The notes beneath the pieces are model-generated. The model saw only the letters and a program-made list of their open reading frames with translations, did not search any database and was not told the DNA's origin. The translations under genes were made by a program, and so were the position numbers. A DNA stretch of 39,539 nt from contig JAUQWS010000047.1 in assembly GCA_030835025.1 (NCBI GenBank), positions 1 through 39,539 of the forward strand, read 5' to 3'. Positions 4,689 through 36,412 of this stretch are shown here, one piece after another. Origin of the DNA: Ignavibacteria bacterium (lineage in GTDB: Bacteria; Bacteroidota; Ignavibacteria; Tepidaquicellales; OLB5). Numbering within the stretch: the stretch's first letter is position 1; each line of letters starts with the position of its first letter.

Positions 4689-5093
4689 TTATTTATTCTT
4701 CTTGTGCATCATCTGCCAGTTCCATGCAAATGCAACTCCTTCCGCAAGCGGATAGATCGTTTCTTTATCCTCAATATCAACTTTCACATTCACTTCCATT
4801 CCCTCCTGGACTTTGGGAGCACCCATTGGATAAACCTCCCAAACACATTTCGCCCGGTACGGTTCTTTATACCCGTTAGAAATCTCAAGTGTGAACTCGT
4901 ATCCCTGGTACCTCCCTCCGGTTCCCGTGCCGCTGATACCTACCGGGTGCGAACCGATTATCTTTGCTTTGGCTTTTTCTGATCTCGCTATCTTAGCTTC
5001 TCTTTCCGCCAGCATTTTCGCTCCGCTTTTTGAGGCATACATAAAAAACAACACAATTGCTGCCACAACAGCTAATATGATGATAATTTCCAT
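4689..5093 (-). CDS. Small membrane-anchored protein downstream of the AAA+ gene
   Basis: A 134-residue protein with one N-terminal membrane segment (residues 2-19, MEIIIILAVVAAIVLFFMY), then a charged helix rich in Lys, Ala and Glu (about 20-46), then a beta-rich cytoplasmic domain of about 85 residues (GRYQGYEFTLEI and PYRAKCVWEVYPMG). No enzymatic motif is seen and I do not recognise a named family. It starts 18 bp after the stop of the tandem AAA+ gene on the same strand, so the two are probably co-transcribed. It may be a membrane partner or anchor for that ATPase, which is an inference from position only. Confidence 0.72.
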   Translation of the reverse strand: MEIIIILAVVAAIVLFFMYASKSGAKMLAEREAKIARSEKAKAKIIGSHPVGISGTGTGGRYQGYEFTLEISNGYKEPYRAKCVWEVYPMGAPKVQEGMEVNVKVDIEDKETIYPLAEGVAFAWNWQMMHKKNK

Positions 5094-5111
5094 TATAGTC
5101 TTTTGGTTTTT

Positions 5112-7721
5112 CTAAAATCCCATTCTTTTTTCTTCTTTTACTAAAGTTGTAAGCTCTTCCACATCCTTCAGTGTAATGGTCTTTATCATTTCGGGAGTCC
5201 TTGAGGCTTTTGGTACTTCAGCAAGCCGCAGGTTCTGATTTTTGATACATTCAGCAAGTGATTTACGAATCTCTCTTGCATTCCCAAAGAATTTATCGCG
5301 CTGGCTGCAGAGTGCTGTAACATGCTTCTTAAAATGATCTGCGGCTTCGGTGTCAAATTCCGCTTCCTGTTCATTAAGCATTACTTTCGCTATTGCGTAG
5401 AGATCAGATTCGGAATAATCTTTGAAATTGAATTTCCTGTCGAACCTTGATTTTAGCCCAGGGTTCATTAGCAGGAATTGCTCCATTTCCTCAGTATAGC
5501 CTGCGCAAATAACCACAAACTCACCTCGGTTGTCTTCCATTCGTTTTAAGATTATCTCAATGGCTTCCTTCCCGAAGTCATTTTCAGTTGATCCCATTAA
5601 TGAATAAGCCTCATCTATGAACAGCACTCCTCCCATTGCTGCATCAATTTTTTCGGCTGTTTTGATAGCAGTCTGGCCAATATAGCCTGCAACAAGCTCT
5701 TCCCTGTCAACTTCAACCAGGTGACCGCGTTCAAGAACTCCAAGGGCTCTGAAAATACGGGCCATAATTCGTGCAACGGTGGTTTTGCCTGTTCCGGGAT
5801 TACCCGTAAAAATCGTGTGAAGTGAGAATGACCGCGTGACATCTTTGCCGATCTCGCGGAAATATCTGACCAGCTTAACCATTTCATGGATATCGCTCTT
5901 AATCTCCTCAATGCCAATCATCTTGTTAAGCTCTGCCAGTGAATCACGCATAAGCTCTTCATCGGGGGGAATGTCAACACCCTTATGCTCTTTCTTCCTG
6001 AAAATCTCCCTGACATCTTCAACAGTTATCGTAGATAGAGCTGCCTCATCAAGCGATTCTGCGCTCACTTTCCCGTCCATAACGCGGAGTCCCATATTCA
6101 TCTTAGCTTCATCAACAATGGTATTTACATATCTAGCATTGCCGAAAGATTTATCTCTATCTCTGTATGCTTCGACAAGTTTTGTATAAAGGTATTCTTC
6201 CGTTTCAGGGTTCAGGTCAACATTTATCTGTCCGGCATGGTAATTCCCGATTTGCAGCAGTTCTGTTGGTGTGTAATCAGGAAAATGGAAATGATGGTTG
6301 AATCTTGATTTTATTCCGGGGTTTGATTCAAGGAAATACTCCATTTCATCGGGATAGCCTGCCGCAATGATCGCAATATCACCAGGTCCGTCTGACATCT
6401 CTTTGATTATCACTTCAATTGCTTCTTTGCCGAAATCCTTTGCAGTATCACCTTTTCTCGCAAGCGAGTAAGCTTCGTCTATGAGCAGAATTCCGCCTCT
6501 TGCTTTCTTGATCGCTTCCTTAACTTTTGGCGCAGTCTGTCCGATAAATTCGCCGATAATATCTGCCCTGTCAACTTCGTGAACGTGGCCTTTGGTAAGC
6601 AGTCCAAGATTATAATAAATTTTGCCAAGAAGCTGGGCAACTTTCGTTTTTCCGGTGCCCGGATTGCCGGTAAAAACAGAGTGCAGATTTATCTTATCAG
6701 TTTCGCCGAAACCCTTTTCTATTCTCAGTTTAACAAATTTAAGATAGTCATACATGTCATTGATATTTTCCTTGATCGTCGCAAGCCCTATCATTTCGTT
6801 TATCTCTTTCATTATCTCTGCTTCAGTAAGCTGCTTGCGTTCCTGTTTCCCCGCAGCCCCGAGTACAGGAATTGACTGCCCCGGATGGAAGAACTTCCCT
6901 GCATCGGGATCAGCTTCTTCAGCTGAAGCGAACTTCACGTACAATGTTCCCAGTAGCTGTTCAAGAAAGACTATGTCAATAATGTAATCTCCTGCGTACC
7001 AGCTTCCGGGCTCGCGACCTCCCCAGCCGCGGGTGAAGCGTACAAGATCAAGTGTATTGGCATAAGTGTAGAAATCGACTATATTAGCAACTGTATCGCC
7101 TGCAGTATTCCTTATCCTGATCAAGAATTCACCCGGCCATGCAGCTTTCCCGTTTTGCAGGTTGTTGCCTTCAATTTCGATCCACATATATTTCGTTTTT
7201 GCAGCATCAAACACCTTCAGGTAATTCCTCTGCCCGAAAGGTATGTCTTCATACGGACCCTCATAAAGTTTTACTGAGGTAAGGCCGAAGTACGGGTTAG
7301 ATTCAGAAGTTACCTCTCCTTCATTCACAGTGTGGAAAGCTGCAGAGCCAAGCATCACTCCATCAACCCATGCTTCCCATCTGTACGCCCCTTTGTACCA
7401 GTAATCACCTGGCACATCCTTTCCCCAGGAATATCTTACATAGGCGGTTTCTTCTGCTTTTGTAACGGTTTGAGTTATCACTTTGTCACATAAGACCGCA
7501 TTAGCTGAATCATAAGCTTTAAAGTTGACATTTACGGACCAGTCCTCTTTATCAAATGCAAGGTTATGTAACGCAAGTTCAACATAAACATAGCGAATCA
7601 CATTTGCATCAAATACCTGACGGTATTTCTTAACTGAACCGTAAAGCCATTCATTGGATCCGTGTGTCTTGAGGCTTTTGAACCTGTATTTTGACGCTAA
7701 ATTAGCAGTAGTATTAGTCAT
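5112..7721 (-). CDS. Tandem AAA+ ATPase (CbbX/SpoVK type) with duplicated N-terminal beta module
   Basis: An 869-residue cytoplasmic protein with four parts. Residues about 28-132 and 162-266 are two copies of a beta-rich module. Each has a VFDA-x3-[IT][RK]Y-x2-[VI]E[LI] segment and, about 70 residues later, a PG-x-[YW]Y-x-G-x-Y segment. A linker follows (267-295). The first AAA+ domain (about 300-545) has Walker A GNPGTGKT (352-359) and Walker B ILLIDEA (411-417). The second (about 590-830) has Walker A GNPGTGKT (640-647) and Walker B VLFIDEAYS (699-707). Each keeps the CbbX-family patterns [VI]DR-x2-[IL]-x-[GA]-x-[FY]IGQTA and NPG[IL]KSRF. CbbX/SpoVK AAA+ rings remodel partner proteins (for example Rubisco activation). 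No Rubisco genes are present here, so the client is unknown. Both ATP sites look intact. Confidence 0.85.
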   Translation of the reverse strand: MTNTTANLASKYRFKSLKTHGSNEWLYGSVKKYRQVFDANVIRYVYVELALHNLAFDKEDWSVNVNFKAYDSANAVLCDKVITQTVTKAEETAYVRYSWGKDVPGDYWYKGAYRWEAWVDGVMLGSAAFHTVNEGEVTSESNPYFGLTSVKLYEGPYEDIPFGQRNYLKVFDAAKTKYMWIEIEGNNLQNGKAAWPGEFLIRIRNTAGDTVANIVDFYTYANTLDLVRFTRGWGGREPGSWYAGDYIIDIVFLEQLLGTLYVKFASAEEADPDAGKFFHPGQSIPVLGAAGKQERKQLTEAEIMKEINEMIGLATIKENINDMYDYLKFVKLRIEKGFGETDKINLHSVFTGNPGTGKTKVAQLLGKIYYNLGLLTKGHVHEVDRADIIGEFIGQTAPKVKEAIKKARGGILLIDEAYSLARKGDTAKDFGKEAIEVIIKEMSDGPGDIAIIAAGYPDEMEYFLESNPGIKSRFNHHFHFPDYTPTELLQIGNYHAGQINVDLNPETEEYLYTKLVEAYRDRDKSFGNARYVNTIVDEAKMNMGLRVMDGKVSAESLDEAALSTITVEDVREIFRKKEHKGVDIPPDEELMRDSLAELNKMIGIEEIKSDIHEMVKLVRYFREIGKDVTRSFSLHTIFTGNPGTGKTTVARIMARIFRALGVLERGHLVEVDREELVAGYIGQTAIKTAEKIDAAMGGVLFIDEAYSLMGSTENDFGKEAIEIILKRMEDNRGEFVVICAGYTEEMEQFLLMNPGLKSRFDRKFNFKDYSESDLYAIAKVMLNEQEAEFDTEAADHFKKHVTALCSQRDKFFGNAREIRKSLAECIKNQNLRLAEVPKASRTPEMIKTITLKDVEELTTLVKEEKRMGF

Positions 7722-7769
7722 ATTCTACAATCATAAAGGTATGAATTTTGATTTTCAATGTAAAACAAT

Positions 7770-7791
7770 AAAGGGCGCAATTGCGCCCTTT
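7770..7791 (-). terminator. Perfect palindromic terminator
   Basis: A perfect palindrome (AAAGGGCGCAA followed by its complement), with T residues on both flanks depending on strand. It lies 23 bp downstream of the M61 peptidase gene read on the minus strand. It also precedes the AAA+ gene, insulating the two. Confidence 0.85.
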
Positions 7792-7813
7792 TAAAAATTC
7801 TAACCATTGCAAA

Positions 7814-9667
7814 TTATTGACCGATCCAGGCTTTTCTGATCGCTAACTGTTCTTCAGAAGGTTCTTTCGAAGGTATGATCACGTACTGTCGTTTCAGTTT
7901 AACAAGGAAAGTATTTGCTTTAAGTGTCTTAGTTATGATTTCTCCTTTGTTGTTTTTTCTTTGAACAACAACTGTAACTTCGTCACCGGGCTTAACTTTG
8001 CTTTCGAACTCTGAAGCTGCCTCATTTAGACTTGAAGCTGTAATATCCACTCCGTTAACAGATACAATAACATCGCCTACTTTCAGCTTAAGAGCCTTTC
8101 CGAATTCCCTCAGCTCAGTAACTTCGAACCTGCCTCCCGTGCTGCTCATTGTTGCCCCTATCATTGCAGGAACTTCTTTATCAATACTTTCGTAAAACTC
8201 ATAACCGGCATATTCAAGATATTGTTTATACGGAATTCTTTTAGGTCCTTCAACATAATCCCTGAAGAAACTCCTTATCTCGGGGTAAGTCAAAGAAGTG
8301 ATAACATCAAATAATTCATCATCTTCAAACGGTTTATCTTTGCCAAATTTCATCAGAAGCTCATCTTTCAAATTCCGGATCCCGTACTTGCCGCCGGAAA
8401 GCCTGAGCAACTCCAGGTCCAGGCACATGCTTATAAGGGCGCCCTTTTCGTAAACATTCACATATTGATGTTTACCTTGATCCAGCGCGCTTTTGCTTAG
8501 TTCTGTAAAAGGCAAAGTATCATTAAAGTACAAGGAAGATATCAGGATCTTCCGCGATATTCTTTCAAAGAACTTTTCGGGAGTGATAAGCCCCTGCTTA
8601 ACCTGGCAATGATGTGCATAGTACTCAGTACTTCCTTCATAAAGCCAGAGATGTTTGCTCATTTTTGGATTTATGAAATCGAAATCATGCACCTCCTTAG
8701 AGTGAATTCCAAGCGGTGTTATGATATGGAAGAATTCATGTGAGATCACATTAACAAACGGTTCAACCATGTCCTCTTTCGGGATATCGGGATAACTCAT
8801 GGTTGTAGACTGAAAATGTTCAAGTGCACCTGCACTGCCTGATTTAGAAGTACCTTCAAACATATACATCAGTATAGAGTATCTATCAGCAGGGAGTTTT
8901 CCGCCAAGGTATTTTCCCTGAGCTTCGAAAAGCTCTCTTGTGTGTGATATAAGATAGGAAGAAATATTCTTGTTTTTTGCAGAGTAACCTGAGAGCAATA
9001 CCCGGGTATTATTCACCATTACAGTAGCAGTATCCGGAACCGAATACATAATGGGATTATCGTGCAGTTCAAAGTAATTCTCAGCACTGTAACGATCACT
9101 ATATTCATCGGTGCTTATCAAATTCAGTGAAGTAGCTCCATAGAAACCCAAAGGTTTGGTCACATTAAGCTCAAATGGCCGTTCTTTAAAGCCATCAAAG
9201 TAGCCCACATAACAGAAATTATTCAATACAAAAACCTTTGCTGAATCGATACACAATCCTACCGGTTCAAAAACAGCAGGTGTTTTATCAGAATGATATG
9301 TATCTTCAACCCAATAAGTAACCTTCTTTATTCTCCCGGCATTCAGCAGCAGCCATCTGTTCGTATCAAGTCTTTCAACAGCCAGCAAACTGCCGTTCTC
9401 ATCAAAAGACCTCACATCAGATATGAACCTTCCGAAATTGTTTACCACGTATGTTCCGGGAACTATCTTCGGAAAATGCAGCTCAACAGTTTCAGAGTTC
9501 ATTTCAGGAGGGATAAGTTCAACCTTTATCCTGTGGTCTCCGGTGGCTTTTGTCAAGTCTATCTTTGCAATAGTCTGGGCTTCTGCCTGAAGGGTAATTG
9601 CTGCTAAAATGATATTGAAAATGAGAAAAATTAGTGCTTTGGGGCATTTTGAGGCTTTGGATATCAT
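7814..9667 (-). CDS. M61 family metallopeptidase with PDZ domain
   Basis: A 617-residue exported peptidase of the M61 (glycyl aminopeptidase-like) family. A signal peptide spans roughly residues 1-30, with cleavage probably after LQAEA. An N-terminal beta domain follows. The catalytic part has the zinc motif HEFFH (residues 310-314) and the downstream WLYEGSTEYY segment (glutamates 344 and 348). The GALEHFQSTT pattern seen in this family precedes it (about 280-289). A PDZ domain occupies about 505-590. The chosen ATG at 9667 has AGGA 9 bases upstream. The longer reading frame to 9745 would begin inside the terminator of the preceding pit gene and is rejected. M61 enzymes cleave peptides in the periplasm; the preferred residue is not established here. 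Confidence 0.9.
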   Translation of the reverse strand: MISKASKCPKALIFLIFNIILAAITLQAEAQTIAKIDLTKATGDHRIKVELIPPEMNSETVELHFPKIVPGTYVVNNFGRFISDVRSFDENGSLLAVERLDTNRWLLLNAGRIKKVTYWVEDTYHSDKTPAVFEPVGLCIDSAKVFVLNNFCYVGYFDGFKERPFELNVTKPLGFYGATSLNLISTDEYSDRYSAENYFELHDNPIMYSVPDTATVMVNNTRVLLSGYSAKNKNISSYLISHTRELFEAQGKYLGGKLPADRYSILMYMFEGTSKSGSAGALEHFQSTTMSYPDIPKEDMVEPFVNVISHEFFHIITPLGIHSKEVHDFDFINPKMSKHLWLYEGSTEYYAHHCQVKQGLITPEKFFERISRKILISSLYFNDTLPFTELSKSALDQGKHQYVNVYEKGALISMCLDLELLRLSGGKYGIRNLKDELLMKFGKDKPFEDDELFDVITSLTYPEIRSFFRDYVEGPKRIPYKQYLEYAGYEFYESIDKEVPAMIGATMSSTGGRFEVTELREFGKALKLKVGDVIVSVNGVDITASSLNEAASEFESKVKPGDEVTVVVQRKNNKGEIITKTLKANTFLVKLKRQYVIIPSKEPSEEQLAIRKAWIGQ

Positions 9668-9710
9668 GAAGTTCCTATTCTGAATAATTAGCAATATATT
9701 AATTAGATGC

Positions 9711-9739
9711 AAAAAACCCTCTTGAGGTTTCAAGAGGGT
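9711..9739 (-). terminator. Terminator of the DUF47-pit transcript
   Basis: A 10-bp perfect stem (9716-9725 with 9730-9739) and a 4-nt loop. Read on the minus strand it ends in six T (9716-9711). It lies 36 bp after the pit stop codon. Confidence 0.92.
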
Positions 9740-9774
9740 CAGCATAAAAATTTTGTCTAAAATGAATTTTAAAC

Positions 9775-10761
9775 TTAAAGGAAAAGGCTAATAAGGTAAT
9801 AAAACAATGCTCCGCATGCAGCTGAAAGCGGTATCGTGAGGATCCAGGCCCAGAGTATTTTTCCGGCAACTCCCCACTTAACTGCTGAAAGTCTGTTTAT
9901 ACTGCCAACCCCAACGATTGAACCGGTAATAGTCTGCGTAGTGCTGACCGGTATACCGGCGAAAGCCGTCACCAACAGGGTTGTAGCCCCGGCGAATTCA
10001 GCGCAGAAGCCGCCAATCGGTCTGAGTTTCGTGATCTTCATACCCATTGTCTTAACAATTCTCCATCCCCCGAACATCGTCCCAAGTGCAATAGCTGCGT
10101 GGCACGAAAGTATAACCCAAACAGGGACGTGAAAAGAATCCATATAGTTGGAAGCTACAAGGACCGAAACAATTATGCCCATTGTCTTCTGTGCATCGTT
10201 TGAGCCGTGTCCGAAGCTGTAGAATCCCGCGGAAATCAGCTGAAGCCGTCTGAATACTTTATCAACTTGCCTCGGTTTTTTATTTCTAACAATCCAAGTT
10301 GTGATTAACATATTGAGAAATCCCAATACAAGTCCGATTATAGGCGCAAGAAAGATAAACAGAATTACTTTTGAATATCCTGCCCAGATAATGACACTCC
10401 AGCCAAGCTTCGCTATTGCTGCACCTCCATAACCTCCAACAAGTGCATGTGAAGAGCTTACTGGTATCCCAAAGTACCACGTAAAAAGATTCCACCAAAT
10501 TGCACCAAGCAGCCCCGCCATTATTACATAAACATCAACAGCATTCAGTTCAACCAGACCCTTACCGACGGTTTTTGCAACCTCATCACCAAATGCAAAT
10601 GCAGCTATAAAATTGAAAAAAGCTGCAAACATCACAGCTTTCTGGGGAGAGAGCACACCTGTAGAAACTATTGTGGCAATTGAATTGGCAGAATCGTGGA
10701 AACCGTTAAGAAAATCAAAAAATAAAGCAATAATTATGATGATCAGTACAAGTTCGAACAT
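9775..10761 (-). CDS. pit: Inorganic phosphate transporter, PiT family
   Basis: A 328-residue inner-membrane phosphate:cation symporter. The PiT family signature appears near both ends, as expected from its internal duplication: NGFHDSANSIATIVSTGVLS at residues 19-38, and the C-terminal GIPVSTTQTITGSIVGVG. About ten hydrophobic segments are visible. The central GFYSFGHGSNDAQKTMG segment is also typical. The gene starts 1 bp after the DUF47 gene stop, a usual pairing, and is closed by a strong terminator. The upstream pair promoter carries Pho-type boxes, implying induction on phosphate limitation, although Pit proteins are often constitutive. Confidence 0.95.
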   Translation of the reverse strand: MFELVLIIIIIALFFDFLNGFHDSANSIATIVSTGVLSPQKAVMFAAFFNFIAAFAFGDEVAKTVGKGLVELNAVDVYVIMAGLLGAIWWNLFTWYFGIPVSSSHALVGGYGGAAIAKLGWSVIIWAGYSKVILFIFLAPIIGLVLGFLNMLITTWIVRNKKPRQVDKVFRRLQLISAGFYSFGHGSNDAQKTMGIIVSVLVASNYMDSFHVPVWVILSCHAAIALGTMFGGWRIVKTMGMKITKLRPIGGFCAEFAGATTLLVTAFAGIPVSTTQTITGSIVGVGSINRLSAVKWGVAGKILWAWILTIPLSAACGALFYYLISLFL

Positions 10762-10762
10762 A

Positions 10763-11380
10763 TCACATATTCTTTATCAATATTCCTTCTACTACTGTTG
10801 CCGAGTGGTGGCACTTATCTATTGCTCTTTCGATGATCTCAAGAATTTCCTTCTTCTTTATCAACTGGATAGTATCTGTTTCATCATCAAAAAGATTCAA
10901 CAATGCATCTTTAAAGACAATATCACCTTCGGTTTCCAGAGATTTTACCTGGACGATCTTTTCCGTTGTTTGTTTCGGATCCTGGATATGCTTTATTACA
11001 TCATTCAGCACCCCCATTTGAACAAGGAGTATATCCGAAAGCTGGGGTCCGAACTGAAGCTGAGATTTGAGCTTATACATATAAAGCCTTGAGCCGACAG
11101 TATCAATAGTATCAATGATATCATCAAGAGAATTCACAAGTGCATATATATCTTCACGGTCAATAGGTGTAATAAAAGTATCGTTCAGGTCACTTATTAC
11201 ATTGTGAGTAAGGTCATCACACCTGTTTTCAAGTACATGAATACGGCTTGAATAATCAGCAAAATTTTCGTGCTTGCTGAACATTTCATTCAGGAGCCTT
11301 GCTGACTCGAGTACATTTGTTGCAAGCTCATTTAATATCTCGTAGAAGTTGTTCTGCTTAGGAAGGAATCTTTTAAACAT
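10763..11380 (-). CDS. DUF47 (PhoU-like) partner of the Pit transporter
   Basis: A 205-residue all-helical protein of the DUF47/PhoU-like family. In many bacteria this gene sits directly before pit and is thought to regulate or support Pit-mediated phosphate uptake. Recognisable segments are LPKQNNFYEIL at the N-terminus and LENRCDDLTHNVISDLND, with the acidic metal-binding-like pattern IDREDIYALVNSLDDIIDTI (residues about 73-92). The ATG at 11380 is 44 bp from the last Pho-like half-site. The gene has its own promoter region behind the phoU terminator, so it need not be read through from the pst operon. Confidence 0.92.
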   Translation of the reverse strand: MFKRFLPKQNNFYEILNELATNVLESARLLNEMFSKHENFADYSSRIHVLENRCDDLTHNVISDLNDTFITPIDREDIYALVNSLDDIIDTIDTVGSRLYMYKLKSQLQFGPQLSDILLVQMGVLNDVIKHIQDPKQTTEKIVQVKSLETEGDIVFKDALLNLFDDETDTIQLIKKKEILEIIERAIDKCHHSATVVEGILIKNM

Positions 11381-11423
11381 AAATGTTAAGACCTTTATAG
11401 TTTAACTAAGATTTACGAAAAAA

Positions 11424-11472
11424 TGTTAAATTTTGATTGTTTCTGTTCTTTTTCGGTTAGGATAGCATTAAA
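11424..11472 (-). promoter_or_regulatory. Pho-box-like repeat upstream of DUF47-pit
   Basis: Read on the plus strand, four half-sites occur: TGTTAAA at 11424, TGTTCTT at 11444, GGTTAGG at 11455 and CATTAAA at 11466. The start-to-start distances are 20, 11 and 11 bp, identical to the arrays before pstS and phoB. The inner two are degenerate, so this is the weakest of the three arrays. The identical spacing is the main support. Confidence 0.65.
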
Positions 11473-11563
11473 ATGAGATAAAGATATAATAAAACAAAAC
11501 CAAAAAAATTGGAGTTTTTTAATTTGTTTAGATTATCTATTAAATAGGGTGTTTTAGCGATAT

Positions 11564-11589
11564 AAAAAAGGCGGCACTGAGCGCCGCCT
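11564..11589 (-). terminator. Terminator of the pst-phoU operon
   Basis: The stem AGGCGGC at 11569-11575 pairs with 11583-11589 around a 7-nt loop. On the minus strand it is followed by a run of T (11569-11564). It is 19 bp after the phoU stop and separates the pst operon from DUF47-pit. Confidence 0.9.
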
Positions 11590-11607
11590 GTATATTAAGA
11601 AACAGCG

Positions 11608-12294
11608 TTATTTTTCGGACGGTTCTTCTGGGCTGAAATCTTCGGATTTATGCCTGATTATTTCACCGCTGCAAAGATACACTACATCTTCAGCTATGTT
11701 AGTGGCTGAGTCTGCAATTCGCTCGAGGTTCTTTGAAACTGACCTCACGCTGAAATATTCTTTCGCCTTCTCGGGGTGTTTCTCAATTGTGTTTACTGTC
11801 TTCTTGAGTATCTGTTTTGTAAGCCTATCCACTTCATCATCAGCAGCTATGACTTCCCTTGCAAGAGTAACATCAGTATTCACAAGAGAATCAAGGCTCT
11901 TCTTAACCATTGCCTGAACTTTGTCTGAAATTCCCCCGAAGTCGGATATGATATCAACCCTTTCCCTTTTGGAAAGATATTTAGCTCTTTTTGCAATGTT
12001 CGATGCAAGGTCTCCCATTCTTTCAAGGTCACTGTTCATCTTCAGAACTGCGATCACGAACCTCAATTCTATAGCAACCGGCTGATACAGGGCCAGTATC
12101 TTCAGGCACTCTTCTTCGATCATTATTTCAAGAGTATCAACTTCCCTGTCCCTTGAAATGACTTCTTCTGCAAGTGCAGAGTCACGCCGCTCAAGGGAAA
12201 GCATAGAGCGCTGTATCTGCTCTTCGACAATTGCGCCGAGGCTGAGTATCAGCTTTTTCAGGTTTACAATTTCTCTTTGCCAGTAGTGGAGCAT
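11608..12294 (-). CDS. phoU: Phosphate signalling protein PhoU
   Basis: A 228-residue all-helical cytoplasmic regulator that links Pst transport to the PhoR sensor and represses the Pho response when phosphate is sufficient. The two repeated helical halves carry the paired metal-site segments DLERMGDLASNIAKRA (residues about 89-104) and NLERIADSATNIAEDVVYL (about 189-207), diagnostic for PhoU. It is the last gene of pstSCAB-phoU, 16 bp after pstB, and is followed by a terminator. Confidence 0.96.
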   Translation of the reverse strand: MLHYWQREIVNLKKLILSLGAIVEEQIQRSMLSLERRDSALAEEVISRDREVDTLEIMIEEECLKILALYQPVAIELRFVIAVLKMNSDLERMGDLASNIAKRAKYLSKRERVDIISDFGGISDKVQAMVKKSLDSLVNTDVTLAREVIAADDEVDRLTKQILKKTVNTIEKHPEKAKEYFSVRSVSKNLERIADSATNIAEDVVYLCSGEIIRHKSEDFSPEEPSEK

Positions 12295-12310
12295 GTTTAT
12301 ATCTCTCTTT

Positions 12311-13084
12311 CTATCCGAATCGTCCGGTAATGTAATCTTCTGTTTGCTTTTCGTTCGGTTTGGTGAATATTTGTTCAGTAGCGCCGTATTCTATCAGCCG
12401 TCCTTCATAGAAAAACGCAGTATTATCTGAAACCCGTCCTGCCTGCTGCATATTATGCGTAACAATAATTATTGTATAATCCTTCCTTAATTCACCTATC
12501 AGGTCTTCGATCTTAAGTGTTGATTTGGGATCCAGCGCACTTGCAGGTTCATCCATGAGTACTATATCCGGATTAATTGCAAGAGCCCTGGCAATACAGA
12601 GTCTTTGCTGTTGACCGCCGGAAAGGCTCATTGCGCTCTTATCAAGCCTGTCTTTAACTTCATCCCATAATGCAGACTTAACAAGACAGCTCTCCACAAT
12701 TTCCATAAGCTTTCCTTTATCTTTAACGCCGTGCAGACGCGGACCATATGCAATATTATCAAATATTGATTTTGGAAAAGGATTCGACTTCTGAAATATC
12801 ATGCCGACTTTCCTTCGGAGCTCGACAACATCAGTTATCGGACCGTAAATATCACCTCCATCAATTAGAACTTTTCCTTCAAGGCGTGTACCATCAATAA
12901 TATCATTCATCCGGTTAAGTGTTCGCAGGAAAGTCGACTTCCCGCAGCCCGAAGGACCAATGAAGGCTGTTACCTTCTTTTCGGGAAGCTCAATATTGAT
13001 ATCGAACAGTGCCTGCACGGAACCATAAAAGAAGTTCATATTCTCAACGTGTATCTTACTCCGTATTTCTTGGTTCTCTGCCAT
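12311..13084 (-). CDS. pstB: Phosphate ABC transporter ATP-binding protein PstB
   Basis: A 257-residue ABC ATPase that powers phosphate import through PstC and PstA. Walker A is GPSGCGKST (43-51), the Q-loop is Gln98, the ABC signature is LSGGQQQ (154-160), Walker B is IVLMDEP (174-180), and the switch histidine lies in [10 protein letters not shown]. The PstB-specific NRMND after the Walker A helix and the [18 protein letters not shown] segment are present. All motifs are intact and the length is typical. Confidence 0.97.
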
Positions 13085-13109
13085 TTACTGTATTAATTAC
13101 TCTGAATTT

Positions 13110-13964
13110 TTACCATTTATATTTTCTTCTAACCCGTATCCTGATTATGACTGCAAAAAGATTGAGTCCAACAACTAACAAAAGGAGCACCAATGCAGTG
13201 CCGTATTGCATCGGCAATATCTTCTGCGCTTCGGGATGCTGAGTTGCGAGTATGTAGAGATGGTAAGGCAGTGCCATGACCTGGTCAAAAACAGATGAAG
13301 GCAGCTCCGGCAAAAAGAATGCTGCTGCAGTAAGAAGAATAGGTGCAGTTTCACCGGCAGCTCGGCCAATCCCCAAAATTGAACCTGTCATCATTCCCGG
13401 AAGCGCATATGGCAGAACATTCTTATAAATGGTTTCCCATTTGGTTGCACCAAGAGCCAGGCTCCCTTCCCGCATATATTTTGGAACAGCTTTCAGCGAT
13501 TCTTCGCTTGCGACAATAATTGTCGGAAGTATCATGCACGCAAGAGTCAGGCTTCCTGCAATTATTGATGCGCCGAAATCAAGCGTAATAACAAACAGTC
13601 CCAGCCCGAACAAACCAAAGACTATTGACGGAACTCCTGCCAGAGTAACAATTGCCATCCTTATGGTTTGAGTGAATTTCGATTGCTTCGCATACTCAGT
13701 CAGATATATTGCGCTGAACATTCCAAGCGGCAGAGCAACCAGAATAGTCCCAATCACCAAATACAATGTCCCAAGAATAGCAGGAAGTATTCCGCCTTCC
13801 GCCCCGCTTTTTTCCGGTTCAGAAAACAGAAAATTCCATGAAATTACCGGGAGTCCGTTAATCAGTATCTTAAAAATTATGTATGCAATAAAGATAACGA
13901 CAACATAAGTAATACTTCTCATCAGCCAGAATGCAAACTTTTCACTTCTTCTTTTGCCGGTCAT
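13110..13964 (-). CDS. pstA: Phosphate ABC transporter permease PstA
   Basis: A 284-residue inner-membrane permease with six predicted membrane segments and the cytoplasmic coupling (EAA-like) loop MREGSLALGATKWETIYKNV (about residues 163-182). It carries the PstA-type N-terminal segment EPEKSGAEGGILPAILGTL. Its ATG directly follows the TAA of pstC (TAAATG), indicating translational coupling. It pairs with PstC to form the phosphate channel. Confidence 0.95.
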   Translation of the reverse strand: MTGKRRSEKFAFWLMRSITYVVVIFIAYIIFKILINGLPVISWNFLFSEPEKSGAEGGILPAILGTLYLVIGTILVALPLGMFSAIYLTEYAKQSKFTQTIRMAIVTLAGVPSIVFGLFGLGLFVITLDFGASIIAGSLTLACMILPTIIVASEESLKAVPKYMREGSLALGATKWETIYKNVLPYALPGMMTGSILGIGRAAGETAPILLTAAAFFLPELPSSVFDQVMALPYHLYILATQHPEAQKILPMQYGTALVLLLLVVGLNLFAVIIRIRVRRKYKW

Positions 13965-14846
13965 TTATGCACGCTCCGATCCGTATTTCTTCAGTACTCT
14001 GTACGAAACCAGATTTAGAATAAAGGTCATAAGCATCAACACAATTCCAACCCAAAACAGAGCCATGTAATGATCACTTCCAATGGTCACCTCACCCATT
14101 TCTGCAGCAACTGTTGCAGTCATTGTTCTAACCGATGTGAACGGATTAAAGCTCACAACCGGAGCATTTCCCGTAACCATCATGACCGTCATAGTCTCAC
14201 CAACTACTCTGCCCATCCCCAGCATCACAGAAGCAATAATTCCCGATAGTGCTGCTGGTACAACTACTTTCCAGATTGTTTCAAGCCTGCTTGCGCCCAA
14301 TGCCAATGAAGCTTCCTTATAGGCAGCGGGTACACTCTTTATCGCATCTTCGGAAATCGACATTATAGTTGGAATTGCCATTAAGGCAAGCAGAACTGCC
14401 CCGGTCAATGCTGTTAAACCGGTGTTAAGCCCGAAAACATCCTTAACCAATGGCGCAATAACAACCAGCCCGAAAAACCCAAGAACAACAGACGGTATTC
14501 CTGCAAGGATCTCGATAAACGGCTTAAGGAACTCTCTTTCTTTTGCGCTTGCCACTTCGCTTATATATACCGCTCCGATAATTCCGAACGGTATTGCTAT
14601 AACTGTAGCAAGCAGAGTCACAAGCACAGAACCGGTAACCAGCGGTAAGAGTCCGAACTCCTCTTTTTGAAATGATACTGGATTCCAAACAGAATGGAAC
14701 AGTTCCGTAAGCCCGGGTTGGCCAATAAAAGGCAAAGCCTCTTTAAAGAGGAATAAAAAGATCAGCAGAACTATGACTATTGAAAGTGAGCCACAGCTCT
14801 GCAGAAAATATTTTATTAGTTTTGCTTTAAGCCTTTGTTTGTTCAA
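13965..14846 (-). CDS. pstC: Phosphate ABC transporter permease PstC
   Basis: A 293-residue inner-membrane permease with about six hydrophobic segments, the EAA-like loop YKEASLALGASRLETIWKVV, and the PstC-type segment EEFGLLPLVTGSVLVTLLAT. It starts 46 bp after pstS and abuts pstA. Together with PstA and PstB it transports phosphate delivered by PstS. Confidence 0.95.
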   Translation of the reverse strand: MNKQRLKAKLIKYFLQSCGSLSIVIVLLIFLFLFKEALPFIGQPGLTELFHSVWNPVSFQKEEFGLLPLVTGSVLVTLLATVIAIPFGIIGAVYISEVASAKEREFLKPFIEILAGIPSVVLGFFGLVVIAPLVKDVFGLNTGLTALTGAVLLALMAIPTIMSISEDAIKSVPAAYKEASLALGASRLETIWKVVVPAALSGIIASVMLGMGRVVGETMTVMMVTGNAPVVSFNPFTSVRTMTATVAAEMGEVTIGSDHYMALFWVGIVLMLMTFILNLVSYRVLKKYGSERA

Positions 14847-14892
14847 GATAATATCAGCAATTTTACAAAGCGGCTACCAAGAAACCGCAAGC

Positions 14893-15759
14893 CTATTTCA
14901 GTGTAATGTACCCGGTTTCCTCAACAATTTTTTGCCCTTCACCGGTCATAGAAAAATCAAGGAACATCTTCAGGTTACCTGCGGGCTCACCGTTAAAATA
15001 CAAATACAGCGGTCTTGCAATTGAATAAGTTTTATCCAGAACAGTCCCATGGCTTGGTACAACTGCCGGAGACGAATCATCTTTCTTAACAGGAACTATT
15101 TTGATATTACCTTCTTTTGTATATCCAAGCCCGACATATCCAATTGACCACTTATCAGCAGAAACTGATTGAACAATTGATGACGAAGCCGGCATAAGTT
15201 TTACAGTAGGAGCGTAGTTCTCTTTATTCAGTACATGCTCCTGAAAGAAAACATAGGTCCCTGAATTGCTTTCCCTTGAAAGTACGGTGAGCGGCTGATC
15301 GGGTCCTCCTAGTTCCTTCCAGTTCTTATAAGCGCCGGTATAGATCTTCTTAAGCTGTTCAAGAGTAATATCTTTGATAGGATTATCAGGATGGACAACA
15401 ATTGCAATACCGTCATAAGCAATTATCTTTTCAACCGGATTAATGTTCTTTTCCTTCGCCTGGTCTTTCTCTTTCTGCTGCATATCGCGCGATGAAGCGC
15501 AAACGTCTGTTGTCCCGTTCAGGAGTGCTGCAATTCCAGTACCTGAACCGCCGCCGGTAACTGAAACCTTCGCTTCAGGATTTTTCTTCATATATGCCTC
15601 TGCAAGGGTACTCATTAGATGTACCATTGTATCAGAGCCCTTAACCGTAATTGATTTCTTGTTCTGTGAATCCTGCTTATCCTTTTTGGCGCATCCAACA
15701 GCTGCAAAAGAGATAAGCAAAAATGATAGTAGTATCAGTTTAAATGTTGTGTTTTTCAT
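14893..15759 (-). CDS. pstS: Phosphate-binding lipoprotein PstS
   Basis: A 288-residue periplasmic phosphate-binding protein anchored by lipidation. The signal peptide ends in a lipobox (FAAVGC, Cys23). Phosphate-binding loops are visible: VKGSDTMVHLMSTLAE, TGGGSGTGIAALLNGTTDVC, and the SRESNSGTYVFFQEHV segment. The ATG at 15759 is chosen over an in-frame start at 15804, because it gives a compact lipoprotein signal peptide and leaves 50 bp to the Pho-like promoter half-site. It is the first gene of the pstSCAB-phoU operon and has its own promoter region directly behind phoR. Confidence 0.95.
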   Translation of the reverse strand: MKNTTFKLILLSFLLISFAAVGCAKKDKQDSQNKKSITVKGSDTMVHLMSTLAEAYMKKNPEAKVSVTGGGSGTGIAALLNGTTDVCASSRDMQQKEKDQAKEKNINPVEKIIAYDGIAIVVHPDNPIKDITLEQLKKIYTGAYKNWKELGGPDQPLTVLSRESNSGTYVFFQEHVLNKENYAPTVKLMPASSSIVQSVSADKWSIGYVGLGYTKEGNIKIVPVKKDDSSPAVVPSHGTVLDKTYSIARPLYLYFNGEPAGNLKMFLDFSMTGEGQKIVEETGYITLK

Positions 15760-15808
15760 TGATATTTTGTTGTTTAATAATTTGCCTGTTTGATTTATAT
15801 GCAAATTA

Positions 15809-15857
15809 TGTTAAAAAATTAAGCAAACTGTTAAGGGAATGTTAAGATTTCATTAAG
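15809..15857 (-). promoter_or_regulatory. Pho box upstream of pstS
   Basis: Read on the plus strand, TGTTAAA begins at 15809, TGTTAAG at 15829, TGTTAAG at 15840 and CATTAAG at 15851. The last three are 7-bp direct repeats with 4-bp spacers, the geometry of known Pho boxes. The half-site resembles TTAACA of Bacillus PhoP boxes and CTTAAC of cyanobacterial SphR boxes. The array sits between the phoR stop (15872) and the pstS ATG. The regulator is most likely the PhoB encoded upstream (inference). Confidence 0.82.
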
Positions 15858-15871
15858 TTAAAGTCTTTGCT

Positions 15872-17638
15872 CTAACTGCTTTGTGGAATTCTGATAGTAA
15901 AAATACTTCCTTTCCCGGGGGTGGAATCCACTTCAATTGTCCCGTTCATAGCGTTTACAATATGCTTTACTATTGCAAGACCCAGTCCGGTTCCCCCTTC
16001 TTCGCGGCTTCTGCCTTTATCTATCCTGTAGAACCTTTCAAACAATCTCGGCATATGCTCTTCTGCAATTCCATATCCTGAATCCTTTACAGAGATCACA
16101 AGCTCATCCTTTTGAAAAGCTGCAGAGATCTCAATATCAGTTTTTTTATCACTGTATTTAATAGCATTATCAAGAAGATTTCCAATTGCCTGCTCCATAA
16201 GGTTTTTATTAATATTTCCCTTCAGATCCTCATCGCAATGAATTCGAATATTCAACTTCTTTTCACTTGCTTTGAACTCAAAATCCTCAACTACGGATCT
16301 TAACACTGTTGGGATTCTTTCATCTTTAGTCCTTGCCCCATCCGGGTTATCTTCAAGTCTTGAAAGTATAAGCAGATCATCAATTATCAGGTTGAGCCTA
16401 TCGATGTGCTTGGCAATTATATCCAGGAACCGCTCAGCATTTTTTGGATCATCAATTGCTCCTTCCCGCAAGGTTTCAATAAATCCTTTTATGGTTGTAA
16501 TCGGAGTTTTCAACTCATGAGAAACATTTGCAACAAGGTCCTTTTTTATAGTATCCAGATGCTTCAGGTTAGAAATATCATTAAGAACCACCAGTGCTCC
16601 CAGAGCTTTATTGTTGACATCATACAAGAGGGTCCCGCTAAGCTGCAGGAATTTATCCCGTTCATGCTGCAGAATTATTTCGGCTTCCACAGGATTTCCT
16701 TCGCTGATTACTCTGTTAAAAAACTTCTGGATCTCTGAGTTTCTAATTGCTTCCTGCAGAGTTTTTCCCTTAATTGACTCGCTGCTTATTCCAAGAATAT
16801 CCTCAGCAGTTTTGTTCAGCAAAAGTATTCGTTCATCATAATCGACGGCTACAACTCCTTCTTTCATACTGGCAAGTACTGCCTGCTGCAGATTGCTTTG
16901 TTCACCTATTATGTCAAGTTTTTCATCAAGCTGTTTAGCCATTTCGTTAAGAGATTCTGCAATGCTGTGTAATTCCGAATTACCTTCGACAAATATTCTG
17001 CCGGAATAATCACCTGAAGCAAATCTTCGCGCTCCGGACTGAATTTCCAATACAGGATTCATAAGTCCGCGTATGCTTATGTATCCCACTACTGCAATTA
17101 TAAGTGCAAAAAAGATAACAGATATCAATAGAGCGGTATTTGCTCCCGCTTCTTCTTTTTCGATACCGGTCAGAGGATATCCTGTTCTTAATACAAATAT
17201 TATCTCAGCTGACTTACCGTATACCGGCATTGCTGCATAAAGGTAGTTTTCCTTTAATGTAAAGCTGTATCTCTCTGAAACACCGAATCCGTTTTTCAAA
17301 GCTTCTATTACTTCGGGCCTGTCTGAGTGATTATCCATTTCTGCCGGATTTTCCCGTGAATCTGCAAGCACCTTGCCGTTGAGCCCGATAATAGTGATCC
17401 TTGAATTACTGAGCTTGTCAAATCTTACAGCAAAATTCCCATAATCTGCCGAATCGAGCCCAAGGGACTCAATTCTTTCCTTTATTAAACCTGTTCTGTT
17501 CTTTAATACCTCGGTATCATTCAGAATAAGGGTATCTTTGAACATCGATGACGCGTAGAATCCGATTATTATCAGGGGAATCACCGAAAAACACATCAGT
17601 ACAATGTATAGCTTCCAAAGGAATTTCCTTTGTTTCAA
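15872..17638 (-). CDS. phoR: Phosphate-sensing histidine kinase PhoR
   Basis: A 588-residue membrane sensor kinase. TM1 spans about residues 9-30, a periplasmic region 31-165, and TM2 about 167-190. A HAMP-type linker (191-243) and a PAS domain (about 250-360) follow. The HisKA domain has the phospho-accepting His374 in NVSHELKTP, and the ATPase domain has the N-box NLLDNAIKYS (487-496), DSGYGIAEEHMPRLF (519 onward) and GGTGLGLAIVKHI (548 onward). It begins with TTG immediately after the phoB TAA, so it is probably translationally coupled. A large periplasmic domain is typical of Bacteroidota and Bacillus-type PhoR, unlike the short E. coli form. Assignment as PhoR rests on the pst context. 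Confidence 0.9.
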   Translation of the reverse strand: MKQRKFLWKLYIVLMCFSVIPLIIIGFYASSMFKDTLILNDTEVLKNRTGLIKERIESLGLDSADYGNFAVRFDKLSNSRITIIGLNGKVLADSRENPAEMDNHSDRPEVIEALKNGFGVSERYSFTLKENYLYAAMPVYGKSAEIIFVLRTGYPLTGIEKEEAGANTALLISVIFFALIIAVVGYISIRGLMNPVLEIQSGARRFASGDYSGRIFVEGNSELHSIAESLNEMAKQLDEKLDIIGEQSNLQQAVLASMKEGVVAVDYDERILLLNKTAEDILGISSESIKGKTLQEAIRNSEIQKFFNRVISEGNPVEAEIILQHERDKFLQLSGTLLYDVNNKALGALVVLNDISNLKHLDTIKKDLVANVSHELKTPITTIKGFIETLREGAIDDPKNAERFLDIIAKHIDRLNLIIDDLLILSRLEDNPDGARTKDERIPTVLRSVVEDFEFKASEKKLNIRIHCDEDLKGNINKNLMEQAIGNLLDNAIKYSDKKTDIEISAAFQKDELVISVKDSGYGIAEEHMPRLFERFYRIDKGRSREEGGTGLGLAIVKHIVNAMNGTIEVDSTPGKGSIFTIRIPQSS

Positions 17639-18328
17639 TTAATAGATCTCCCTGAATTTGTATCCGACTCCCCGGACAGTCTCAATATATTCGTTTTCTT
17701 CTCCAAGCTTTTTTCTGAGCGAAACAATATGAACATCAATTGATCTATCGGTTACTGAAACACCCTCACCCCGTGTTGCATCTACTATCTGGTATCTTGT
17801 CATAACCCATCCCGGTTTTTTGGCAAGTGTAAGGAGTATTCTGAACTCCAGATGAGTAAGATCGATCAGTTTGCCCTTAATTGTTACTTCATGTCTTCCT
17901 GCGTGGATCTTTAGGTCACCGCGCTCAATAACAGGCTTCTCTTCTTCTTCCTTTTGAGGGCGCCTTCTTAATGTGGCCTTTACTATAGCCAGAAGCTCTC
18001 TTGGACTAAATGGTTTTGTAACATAATGGTCGGCACCAATTTCAAGCCCTGCAACCTTATCCGCTTCTTCTGCCTTAGCTGTTACCATTACTATCGGGAT
18101 ATTTGCCTTTTGTTTATCAGCCTTAATGATCTTTGTAATATCAAAACCGTCTATTCCCGGTAGCATGAGGTCAAGAATTATCAGGTCATAATCATTCTCC
18201 TTCAGAAGCTCAAGCGCCTCTTCACCGCTTACTGAAGTCCTTACCCTATATCCATTTTTCGATAGATTGTAGTCAATAAGTTCAAGAATATCCTTTTCAT
18301 CGTCAACTACAAGTATTTTCTCTTTCAT
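17639..18328 (-). CDS. phoB: Phosphate response regulator PhoB (OmpR family)
   Basis: A 229-residue two-domain response regulator. The receiver domain (1-120) has the acidic pocket DDE (9-11), the phosphorylation site Asp53 in LIILDLMLPG, and Lys105 in VTKPFSPREL. The C-terminal winged helix (about 131-229) has the OmpR-type ending SIDVHIVSLRKKLGE and VRGVGYKF. It is predicted to bind the CTTAACA-type repeats found before phoB itself, pstS and DUF47-pit. The name PhoB or PhoP would be equally acceptable. Confidence 0.92.
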   Translation of the reverse strand: MKEKILVVDDEKDILELIDYNLSKNGYRVRTSVSGEEALELLKENDYDLIILDLMLPGIDGFDITKIIKADKQKANIPIVMVTAKAEEADKVAGLEIGADHYVTKPFSPRELLAIVKATLRRRPQKEEEEKPVIERGDLKIHAGRHEVTIKGKLIDLTHLEFRILLTLAKKPGWVMTRYQIVDATRGEGVSVTDRSIDVHIVSLRKKLGEENEYIETVRGVGYKFREIY

Positions 18329-18364
18329 TCTAATGATTTTTTAATTTTCTAATAACATTCTTAT

Positions 18365-18413
18365 TGTTAAAATTAGCACTTGTTTGTTAGAACGGTGTTA
18401 AGAACATATTAGA
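18365..18413 (-). promoter_or_regulatory. Pho box upstream of phoB
   Basis: Read on the plus strand, TGTTAAA begins at 18365, TGTTAGA at 18385, TGTTAAG at 18396 and TATTAGA at 18407, giving distances of 20, 11 and 11 bp. This is the same array as upstream of pstS. It predicts autoregulation of phoBR. The closest half-site is 37 bp from the phoB ATG. The opposite gene begins at 18547, so the array could also influence it. Confidence 0.78.
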
Positions 18414-18546
18414 AATAAAAATCACTCAAAAATAGCATTTAAATTGTGATTAATAAACTCAAAACCCTGATTTGGAGGAAAATATTGACCTAAATCATAT
18501 TTAAACTTAATGCAAACAGGCATATTTGTATGTAACATTACTGAAT

Positions 18547-19251
18547 ATGTCAGGCGATATATACTTACTTACGATTACAGCAGCTTCAATTGGATTCATA
18601 CACACTCTGATAGGACCCGATCATTACCTGCCTTTTATCATGATGGCCAAAGCCGGAAAGTGGTCAAAGTTTAAAACGATTTGGTTAACTATCCTTTGCG
18701 GAATAGGTCACGTTATGAGTTCCGTTGTGCTTGGAATCGTTGGAATAGCTGCAGGAATTGCTTTGAATCATCTTGAGATCATTGAGAGTACAAGAGGAGA
18801 AATAGCAGGCTGGGCTCTTATTACTTTCGGATTCCTTTACATGATATGGGGTATCAAGAAAGCTTATGTGAACAAGCCTCATTCACACGTGCATGTTCAG
18901 AATGACGGAACGTATGTTAACCATGCACATACCCACGAGGGCAAACATGAGCACTCAACAGAAAAGAGATCACTCACACCATGGATACTTTTTGTGGTGT
19001 TTGTACTAGGACCGTGCGAACCGCTGATACCTCTTGTAATGTTTCCTGCTGCTCAGCACAGTACTGCAGGAATCGCACTTGTTTCCGGCGTTTTTGGACT
19101 TGTTACTGTTGGAACTATGGTTCTGGTTGTGACGGCATCATTATGGGGATTGAACTTTCTGCCACTGGGCAAAGTTGAGAAATTCTCTCATGCATTTGCC
19201 GGATTTGCTATTTTCGCTTCGGGACTGGCGATCAATCTCCTCGGTCTGTAA
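18547..19251 (+). CDS. NicO/UreH-like membrane protein with His-rich loop
   Basis: A 234-residue inner-membrane protein with about six hydrophobic segments. The first two carry the NicO/UreH-family pattern HTLIGPDHYLPF and CGIGHVMSSVVLG. The central loop is histidine-rich: HSHVHVQ, then NHAHTHEGKHEHS. Members of this superfamily move nickel or cobalt (RcnA, NicO) or sit next to urease genes (UreH). No urease, hydrogenase or cobalamin genes are adjacent, so the metal is unknown. The ATG at 18547 is preferred to a TTG at 18526, which lies inside a CATATTTG sequence that may be a promoter box. The stop abuts the stop of the convergent DUF192 gene. Confidence 0.75.
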   Translation: MSGDIYLLTITAASIGFIHTLIGPDHYLPFIMMAKAGKWSKFKTIWLTILCGIGHVMSSVVLGIVGIAAGIALNHLEIIESTRGEIAGWALITFGFLYMIWGIKKAYVNKPHSHVHVQNDGTYVNHAHTHEGKHEHSTEKRSLTPWILFVVFVLGPCEPLIPLVMFPAAQHSTAGIALVSGVFGLVTVGTMVLVVTASLWGLNFLPLGKVEKFSHAFAGFAIFASGLAINLLGL

Positions 19252-19794
19252 TTATTTTGTATCGAGCTTGTATTCAATGAGATCACCTTCTTTTATCCCA
19301 TGCCGGTTACAATAACCACCATTAACTTCAACCACAAATTGAGATTTTTGTTTTGAGGGCAGGGATTTTTCAGAATACGGTACAGTGTTCTTATGTATTG
19401 TGTTTATTAACCCTTTATTATCAATAAAAATAATATCCAGCGGTATTTTTGTATTCTTCATCCAGAAAGATTTCATTTCCATCTCCTCAAACAGGAATAA
19501 CATTCCTTTGTCTTCATCCATTTCTGACCGGTACATTAAGCCCTGAGTTCGTTCAGTTGGGTTGACCGCAGCCTCAACTTCGATCTTTGAAAGTACCTGC
19601 CTTGTATCCTTGCTCAAAAATGTTACTTCGCCTTCTCTGACCCATTCAGGTTCACCCGACTTTTTAAAGAAAAGAAAATAAGATGAAACAATAACAGCCG
19701 AAATCACCACGGCAATAATGATGTTCCTTTTGCTTAATAATCCTGATTGCTTTGACTTATGCCTTTTAAGATCTGTATTTTTCTTTTTACCCAT
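19252..19794 (-). CDS. DUF192 protein, membrane-anchored
   Basis: A 180-residue protein with a basic N-terminus, one membrane segment (about residues 24-43) and a periplasmic DUF192 domain (about 57-177). Family features are visible: ERTQGLMYRSEMDEDKGMLF, MKSFWMKNTKIPLDIIFID, and the C-terminal VEVNGGYCNRHGIKEGD. The function of DUF192 is not established. The stop codon is immediately next to the stop of the convergent membrane-protein gene, so their 3' ends must share sequence. Confidence 0.85.
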   Translation of the reverse strand: MGKKKNTDLKRHKSKQSGLLSKRNIIIAVVISAVIVSSYFLFFKKSGEPEWVREGEVTFLSKDTRQVLSKIEVEAAVNPTERTQGLMYRSEMDEDKGMLFLFEEMEMKSFWMKNTKIPLDIIFIDNKGLINTIHKNTVPYSEKSLPSKQKSQFVVEVNGGYCNRHGIKEGDLIEYKLDTK

Positions 19795-33417: not shown

Positions 33418-33565
33418 GCAAATTAAAGGCTTTAAGCTTTGATAATGCTAATACTGCATTTAGACTGATTTTGCAGTTGAAATTTACATTTTTATAGATA
33501 AATTGCGGTTTATATATGTAAAAAATTACATCTTTCTTTAAAAATCTAACCGGAAATCTTTGAAG

Positions 33566-35368: not shown

Positions 35369-35380
35369 ACAGCACGGCTG

Positions 35381-36397: not shown

Positions 36398-36412
36398 GCA
36401 CGGAAATTTATA

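Follow-up and report, generated by a model that had tools for sequence, protein, structure and literature searches.

How are the phosphate genes of an uncultured genus of Ignavibacteria controlled? The question is raised by a stretch of 39,539 nucleotides (contig JAUQWS010000047.1 of assembly GCA_030835025.1; hereafter, the window), in which three phosphate operons, headed by phoB, pstS and a DUF47-pit pair, are each preceded by an array of four similar heptamers. A sequence-only reading of the window had proposed that these heptamers begin 20, 11 and 11 bp apart at all three promoters, and the 12 heptamers are indeed found at these positions and spacings (Table 1); TTAG is present in three of them, as had been counted, whereas TTAA is present in eight rather than seven, and one (TGTTCTT at 11444) contains neither. 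On the coding strand, each promoter reads, from the far to the near end, YTAAY-N6-YTAAC-N6-YTAAC-N15-YTAACA, with two mismatches at DUF47. We propose, with a probability of roughly 0.75, that the array combines a PhoB-type activator operator with a core promoter, whose TAnnTTT(G/A) box would begin 16 bp past the start of the last of the three 11-bp half-sites (+16; all offsets are counted from this point).

Table 1. Arrays, promoter elements and phosphate genes in the window.
Feature	Positions	Strand	Details
phoB promoter array	18365..18413	(-)	half-sites TCTAATA 18407-18413, CTTAACA 18396-18402, TCTAACA 18385-18391; TTTAACA 18365-18371; forward-strand heptamers TGTTAAA 18365, TGTTAGA 18385, TGTTAAG 18396, TATTAGA 18407
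Predicted phoB -7 box, TAATTTTA	18368..18375	(-)	+16 to +23 from last half-site; overlaps TTTAACA
pstS promoter array	15809..15857	(-)	half-sites CTTAATG 15851-15857, CTTAACA 15840-15846 and 15829-15835; TTTAACA 15809-15815; forward-strand heptamers TGTTAAA 15809, TGTTAAG 15829, TGTTAAG 15840, CATTAAG 15851
Second promoter-like element at pstS, TAATTTGC	15801..15808	(-)	+27; TAnnTTGY type; abuts TTTAACA
DUF47-pit promoter array	11424..11472	(-)	half-sites TTTAATG 11466-11472, CCTAACC 11455-11461, AAGAACA 11444-11450 (degenerate); TTTAACA 11424-11430; forward-strand heptamers TGTTAAA 11424, TGTTCTT 11444, GGTTAGG 11455, CATTAAA 11466
phoB-like response regulator	17639..18328	(-)	presumed binder of the array; best NCBIfam match TIGR02154 PhoB, 232.3 bits (cut-off 296.2)
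phoR/pnpS-like sensor kinase	15872..17638	(-)	NF046044 PnpS, 392.8 bits (cut-off 400)
pstS	14893..15804	(-)	TIGR02136, 279.4 bits (above cut-off 206.6)
pstC, pstA, pstB, phoU	11608..14846	(-)	NCBIfam equivalogs above cut-off
DUF47 (PhoU-like) and pit	9775..11380	(-)	TIGR00153 and PitA/CysP-type matches below cut-offs; pair also in relatives

When the window was searched with a degenerate array pattern allowing up to three mismatches, the matches were exactly the three promoters; 0.02 matches were expected and three or more occurred in 0 of 100 shuffles. This pattern was composed after the promoters were known, and a weight matrix built from relatives only, with the window excluded, therefore provides an independent test that carries more weight. 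Applied to both strands, this matrix placed the three promoters at the top with scores of 39.4, 38.1 and 18.4, no other place in the window exceeded 0.3, and 40 resampled windows, scored on one strand each, gave at most 8.1. The DUF47 array is the weakest of the three copies, with two mismatches and a degenerate third site. The half-site pair alone (TTAACA-N5-TTAACA) was not enriched in the window at up to two mismatches (10 matches, 6.8 expected), and it was discarded as a genome-wide marker because it is unspecific (27 matches versus 28 for the reversed control at up to one mismatch). As pairs are not enriched and the array is, the signal resides in the array and not in the heptamer. A pair without mismatches within pstC (14412-14429) was set aside as a coding coincidence, since it encodes LNTGLTA and varies mostly synonymously in relatives.

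The nearest named relatives are metagenome-assembled genomes labelled Ignavibacteria or Chlorobiota bacterium, and the phosphate cluster is syntenic in the genus members that were fetched, to the extent of their contigs. Without any mismatch, the array precedes phoB in 12 of the 13 genomes of the genus and pstS in equally many; with up to two mismatches, it precedes DUF47 in 11 of 13. The original proposal had been staked on its presence in close relatives, where it is retained. At up to two mismatches, these 13 genomes contain 48 array matches compared to five for the reversed pattern. Forty-two of them fall at four orthologous promoters, namely those of pstS (12), phoB (12), DUF47 (11) and Inositol_P (7), and the remaining six are about as many as in the control. 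In alignments of the promoters, the array is free of mismatches and exactly spaced at phoB in 13 of 13 sequences (12 from the genus and one from a sister genus) and at pstS in 12 of 12 (11 and one), while the ten DUF47 promoters have no mismatch in six cases, one in one, two in two and three in one (L068, in which the last spacing is 19). The sites are constant and the bases between them variable. These alignments leave out two loci of another family (L070 and L071), which have no array at phoB and an array at pstS, as well as pstS of genome G003, where the gene is broken up. In this genome (L072, G003:C277), pstS matches as three pieces with stops, which reflects either an assembly error or a broken gene.

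Beyond the genus, the phoB array is found with one mismatch in a second sister genus (G014). Among 11 pstS regions of the class, which were inspected by eye, two (L017 and L025) have 11-bp repeats with no TAnnTTTG at +16, one (L020) has a pair on the opposite strand, one (L021) has a single CTTAACA, and no half-site repeats were spotted in the other seven. An origin of the arrays by chance, or by common ancestry of AT-rich upstream DNA, would fit the AT-rich sequence and the lack of enrichment of isolated pairs; however, three different promoters share the exact spacing, the sites stay constant while the bases between them vary across genomes, and the 48 matches contrast with five in the reversed control. 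We regard such an origin as extremely improbable. The claim that three phosphate operons share an 11-bp direct-repeat array of Pho-box geometry is thus borne out by the alignments and the genus scan.

Each of the three promoters carries three tandem direct heptamers at an 11-bp period, and the matrix of 96 such half-sites (sites 1 to 3) has the consensus CTTAACA, with A at a frequency of 0.77 at position 7. Similar arrays are found far outside the genus. Eighty PstS loci from named genomes were compared, of which L229, with short upstream DNA, and seven loci of the family (L152 to L158) were dropped; a tandem CTTAACA array at 11 bp was found in 26 of the remaining 72 upstream regions, in groups including Omnitrophota, WOR-1, Heliobacteria and Zixibacteria. 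In the same regions, 1 to 5 of 72 had such repeats at periods of 8, 9, 10, 12, 13 or 14 bp, and 9 of 72 had the reversed half-site at 11 bp. The p-values for tandem repeats come from base shuffles (100, 50 and 100) with a consensus derived from the genus and serve as a ranking, not as proof. The suggestion that the array may define a Pho box for this lineage was overstated in so far as half-site and period are no hallmark of it, recurring in 26 of 72 pstS regions of other groups.

Direct repeats resembling TTAACA also precede the phosphate genes controlled by PhoP in Bacillus subtilis, and in Escherichia coli, the Pho box is followed by a -10 box at a set distance. The E. coli Pho box is composed of 11-nt direct units with seven conserved and four less conserved bases, according to the available text of PMC4415409; this unit geometry resembles that of the array, but the half-site is CTGTCAT in E. 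coli and CTTAACA here, and the matrix does not agree with CTGTCAT. The SphR protein of Synechocystis binds to tandem CTTAACCT repeats, three or more in number and separated by 3-bp linkers, as described in the accessible part of PMC1906773. The likeness to SphR that had been pointed out is supported: the SphR boxes of Synechocystis and other cyanobacteria share the 11-bp period and the position before pst operons, and the three repeats at 11 bp found here correspond to the minimum of three repeats at 8 + 3 bp given in the same portion of that source. The consensus itself differs from CTTAACCT, since the half-site is CTTAACA, with mostly A at position 7 and position 8 already belonging to the free linker, the matrix covering seven positions. 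Furthermore, the array is combined with a predicted promoter of the TAnnTTTG type, unlike that of SphR, and phoB itself bears it, whereas self-regulation of sphR is no general rule as far as the accessible part of PMC1906773 goes. Bacteroides fragilis likewise possesses a PhoRB system, and gel shifts showed its PhoB to bind the promoter of pst, as reported in the available text of PMC3547664, which gives no box sequence. No description of a Pho box for this Ignavibacteria lineage turned up in the result listings of searches of open-licence papers. Since foreign pstS arrays have the 11-bp period and SphR shares it, the operator belongs to a known kind, and the three upstream heptamers are best read as a predicted PhoB operator of this direct-repeat kind, closest to the SphR box.

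What, then, is the fourth heptamer, TTTAACA? It had been placed where the core promoter should be, and at phoB the alignments agree: TA at +16 and TTTA at +20 are present in 13 of 13 promoters, all of which contain TAATTTTA, the whole element reading TAATTTTAACA in each. Sigma-A promoters of the Bacteroidetes (Flavobacterium) have a TAnnTTTG -7 box, with TAnnTTGY as a variant motif, as given in the available part of PMC9723704. General promoters of the genus fit TAnnTTTG at ssrA (10 of 12) and rnpB (7 of 13), and all seven metallophosphoesterase promoters of the genus with at least two half-sites have it at +16; the pstS element TAATTTGC, present in nine of 12 promoters, resembles the TAnnTTGY motif given there. 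The phoB promoters differ from TAnnTTTG in that TTTA, followed by ACA, takes the place of TTTG. Sigma-70 promoters of the TATAAT type were rejected for this region (23 matches versus 21 in shuffles), and TAnnTTTG was preferred after the ssrA, rnpB and phosphoesterase data; a -10-like CATAAT at pstS overlaps TTTAACA.

The register of 16 bp recurs at other genes. Among the 26 foreign pstS arrays, a TAnnnT box starts at +16 in 12, compared to four each at +27 and +38 and three or fewer at any other offset between +7 and +39. Two pstS promoters of the same order, outside the family, have TAnnTTTG exactly at +16 and no AACA there, and the Porin_O_P promoter of the genome to which the window belongs has four half-sites at 11 bp and then TAATTTTA at +16. 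In the Inositol_P promoters, the element is TAnnTTTA in seven of eight genomes, with AT, TT or TC as the variable bases (G006 deviates). A box at +16 puts its TTTG at +20 to +23, which is where TTTAACA begins.

The combination of half-sites and box was then used in a scan of 15 genomes (two half-sites plus TAnnTTTR at +16, up to one mismatch, no gene information in the query). It returned 49 matches versus 18 for the reversed query in ten genus genomes, and two versus 14 in five genomes of another family. Loci were assigned for 30 of the 51 matches. Thirteen of these are expected, as the pattern was derived from them: phoB (7), Inositol_P (1) and phosphoesterase (5); six phoB loci and the Inositol_P locus were assigned by place, the seventh phoB locus (L273) by its open frame, and the phosphoesterase loci by open frames and Pfam matches of the window genome's own copy. 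The other 17 loci comprise LMWPc/ArsC-like genes (5), 5'-nucleotidase (3), Porin_O_P (2), PhoX (1, in a genome of the other family), other genes (4) and positions within open frames (2). Family searches covered two of the five ArsC-like proteins, which scored below the arsC equivalog cut-off, two of the three 5'-nucleotidases and both Porin_O_P proteins. By our own judgement, and as a raw count that includes the arsenate reductase-like genes, 11 of these 17 independent loci precede phosphate-related genes. Ten other places from the genome scans for pairs and arrays (L115 to L124) were read for gene context and none was taken up, except for the ArsC-like gene (L115) and the porin (L116), which came up again in later searches. 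The divergent region between metallophosphoesterase and Inositol_P (L114:4491-4662 on G000:C69, with orthologues L108 to L113) has half-sites toward both genes and is conserved in the genomes compared.

Two sets of observations weigh against the proposed operator-promoter arrangement, the first of which concerns the core promoter. TA is found at +16 in none of the 12 pstS promoters; all 12 have TA at +27 instead, one 11-bp step further on, within an element that reads TAATTTGC in nine, TAATTTAC in two and TATTTTGC in one. The ten DUF47 promoters have TA neither at +16 nor at +27. The reading of TTTAACA as part of a -7 box is hence direct at phoB only. The AACA of TTTAACA is kept in 33 of 35 promoters, although a -7 box does not need it, and TAATTTTAACA was not enriched genome-wide (8 matches versus 6 in the control), so TTTAACA was dropped as a general promoter element. 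In several genomes, the start codon of Inositol_P lies within a few bases of TTTAACA, so this promoter would work only with a leaderless message or a start further downstream.

These findings bear on the view that all four heptamers are regulator half-sites, with PhoB also sitting on TTTAACA, closer to the gene by two turns, where it might exert feedback or obstruct the promoter. From 32 sites, site 4 has a matrix (TTTAACA) that nearly equals the one of sites 1 to 3, the conserved AACA would find an explanation, TTTAACA stays at +20 both in pstS, where the likely -7 box is at +27, and in DUF47, where no TA precedes it, and phosphoesterase promoters, which have the standard TTTG, lack AACA. However, a distance of 20 bp does not fit a whole number of 11-bp periods, TTTG or TTTA is independently placed at +20 to +23 by the +16 rule, the Inositol_P promoters keep TAnnTTTA with variable inner bases, and AACA is missing beside the TTTG of the two pstS promoters from outside the family. 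We consider four regulator sites a serious but rather unlikely arrangement. TTTAACA is more likely to be core promoter than a fourth regulator site, plainly so at phoB and less plainly at pstS and DUF47, and the earlier reading of it as a fourth half-site is revised to this extent. For pstS, TAATTTGC at +27 is a better -7 candidate than TTTAACA, and at DUF47, TTTAACA is probably a degenerate form of the TTTA half of the box. It is tempting to speculate that, in this family, the -7 region of the three core operons is fused with a regulator half-site, TTTAACA being core promoter and fourth PhoB contact at once. We hold this to be unlikely; if true, the operator would extend into the polymerase site, which could silence the promoters without PhoB and make them self-limiting when PhoB is abundant.

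The second set concerns the regulator and its targets. The PhoB-like protein scores below both PhoB equivalog cut-offs (232.3 of 296.2 bits for TIGR02154 and 226.4 of 270 bits for NF053854), and six of the 17 independent loci either precede genes of other kinds or fall within an open frame. Furthermore, one genus member, G004, lacks the phoB-phoR-pst-phoU block and counterparts of the genes at 7814-9745 and 18526-19251 (L303, G004:C53 compared with window 4689-19794); the gap is flanked by genes 65 and 73 percent identical to the window flank genes, and DUF47-pit is retained. This genome has no PhoB orthologue (best match 40 percent) among 15 response-regulator matches, and it still keeps a DUF47 array with four mismatches, its third site shifted by one base, and a 5'-nucleotidase site. 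As a natural case of PhoB loss it was judged to give weak support, because the DUF47 array of G008, which has PhoB, already carries three mismatches. These sites, together with the further response regulators of the genus, would suit an array that is bound by a different OmpR-family regulator of the genome rather than by the neighbouring PhoB-like protein. On the other side, in those 12 genomes of the genus where the array was found at these genes, it precedes the pst operon and phoB itself, and most sites at further genes precede phosphate-related genes, which makes a different regulator quite improbable.

Gene order and best matches underlie the names given to the two regulators, DUF47 and Pit, all of which fall short of curated cut-offs. 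Across the genus, identity to the window proteins is 91-93 percent for the PhoB-like protein and just 65-71 percent for the PhoR-like kinase (window 15872-18328). The listed open reading frame of pstS begins at an upstream TTG, and the methionine common to relatives lies about 15 codons downstream in the alignment. Upstream of the DUF47 array by about 20-40 bp, a T-rich stretch that contains GGTT as read on the coding strand (window 11491-11514) is kept in the DUF47 promoter alignment, and a terminator-like hairpin is found 3' of phoU at 11569-11589. An Rfam scan matched nothing apart from a tRNA. Elsewhere in the window (31612-37552), two adjacent, similar open reading frames of 601 and 602 amino acids are followed by two permease-like ones, an arrangement that resembles an oligopeptide ABC transporter whose binding protein is duplicated.

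Taken together, we suggest that the three CTTAACA half-sites, which repeat in tandem every 11 bp and thus lie on roughly one face of the DNA, would be bound head to tail by the phosphorylated neighbouring PhoB-like regulator. The half-sites overlap the -33 position, and by analogy with PhoB biology, the regulator may replace the -33 element and recruit RNA polymerase, which would read the Bacteroidetes-type -7 box TAnnTTT(G/A) that starts at +16. At phoB, TTTAACA at +20 would represent the TTTA half of this box plus three bases; at pstS, it would abut the second box at +27. Low phosphate would then induce phoBR, pstSCAB-phoU and DUF47-pit, joined within the genus by the genes for phosphoesterase, arsenate reductase-like protein, 5'-nucleotidase and phosphate porin. 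What is partly supported by these comparisons is a PhoB-type operator of a known kind in this lineage, which at phoB and several other genes stands at a constant distance from a predicted TAnnTTT(G/A) core promoter. For the uncultured Ignavibacteria genus, this provides a Pho box that can be put to use as well as a predicted regulon, and it links a PhoB-type operator with promoters of the TAnnTTTG type. The spacing of 16 bp between the last half-site and the -10 box, found in 12 of the 26 foreign pstS arrays, could aid regulon prediction elsewhere.

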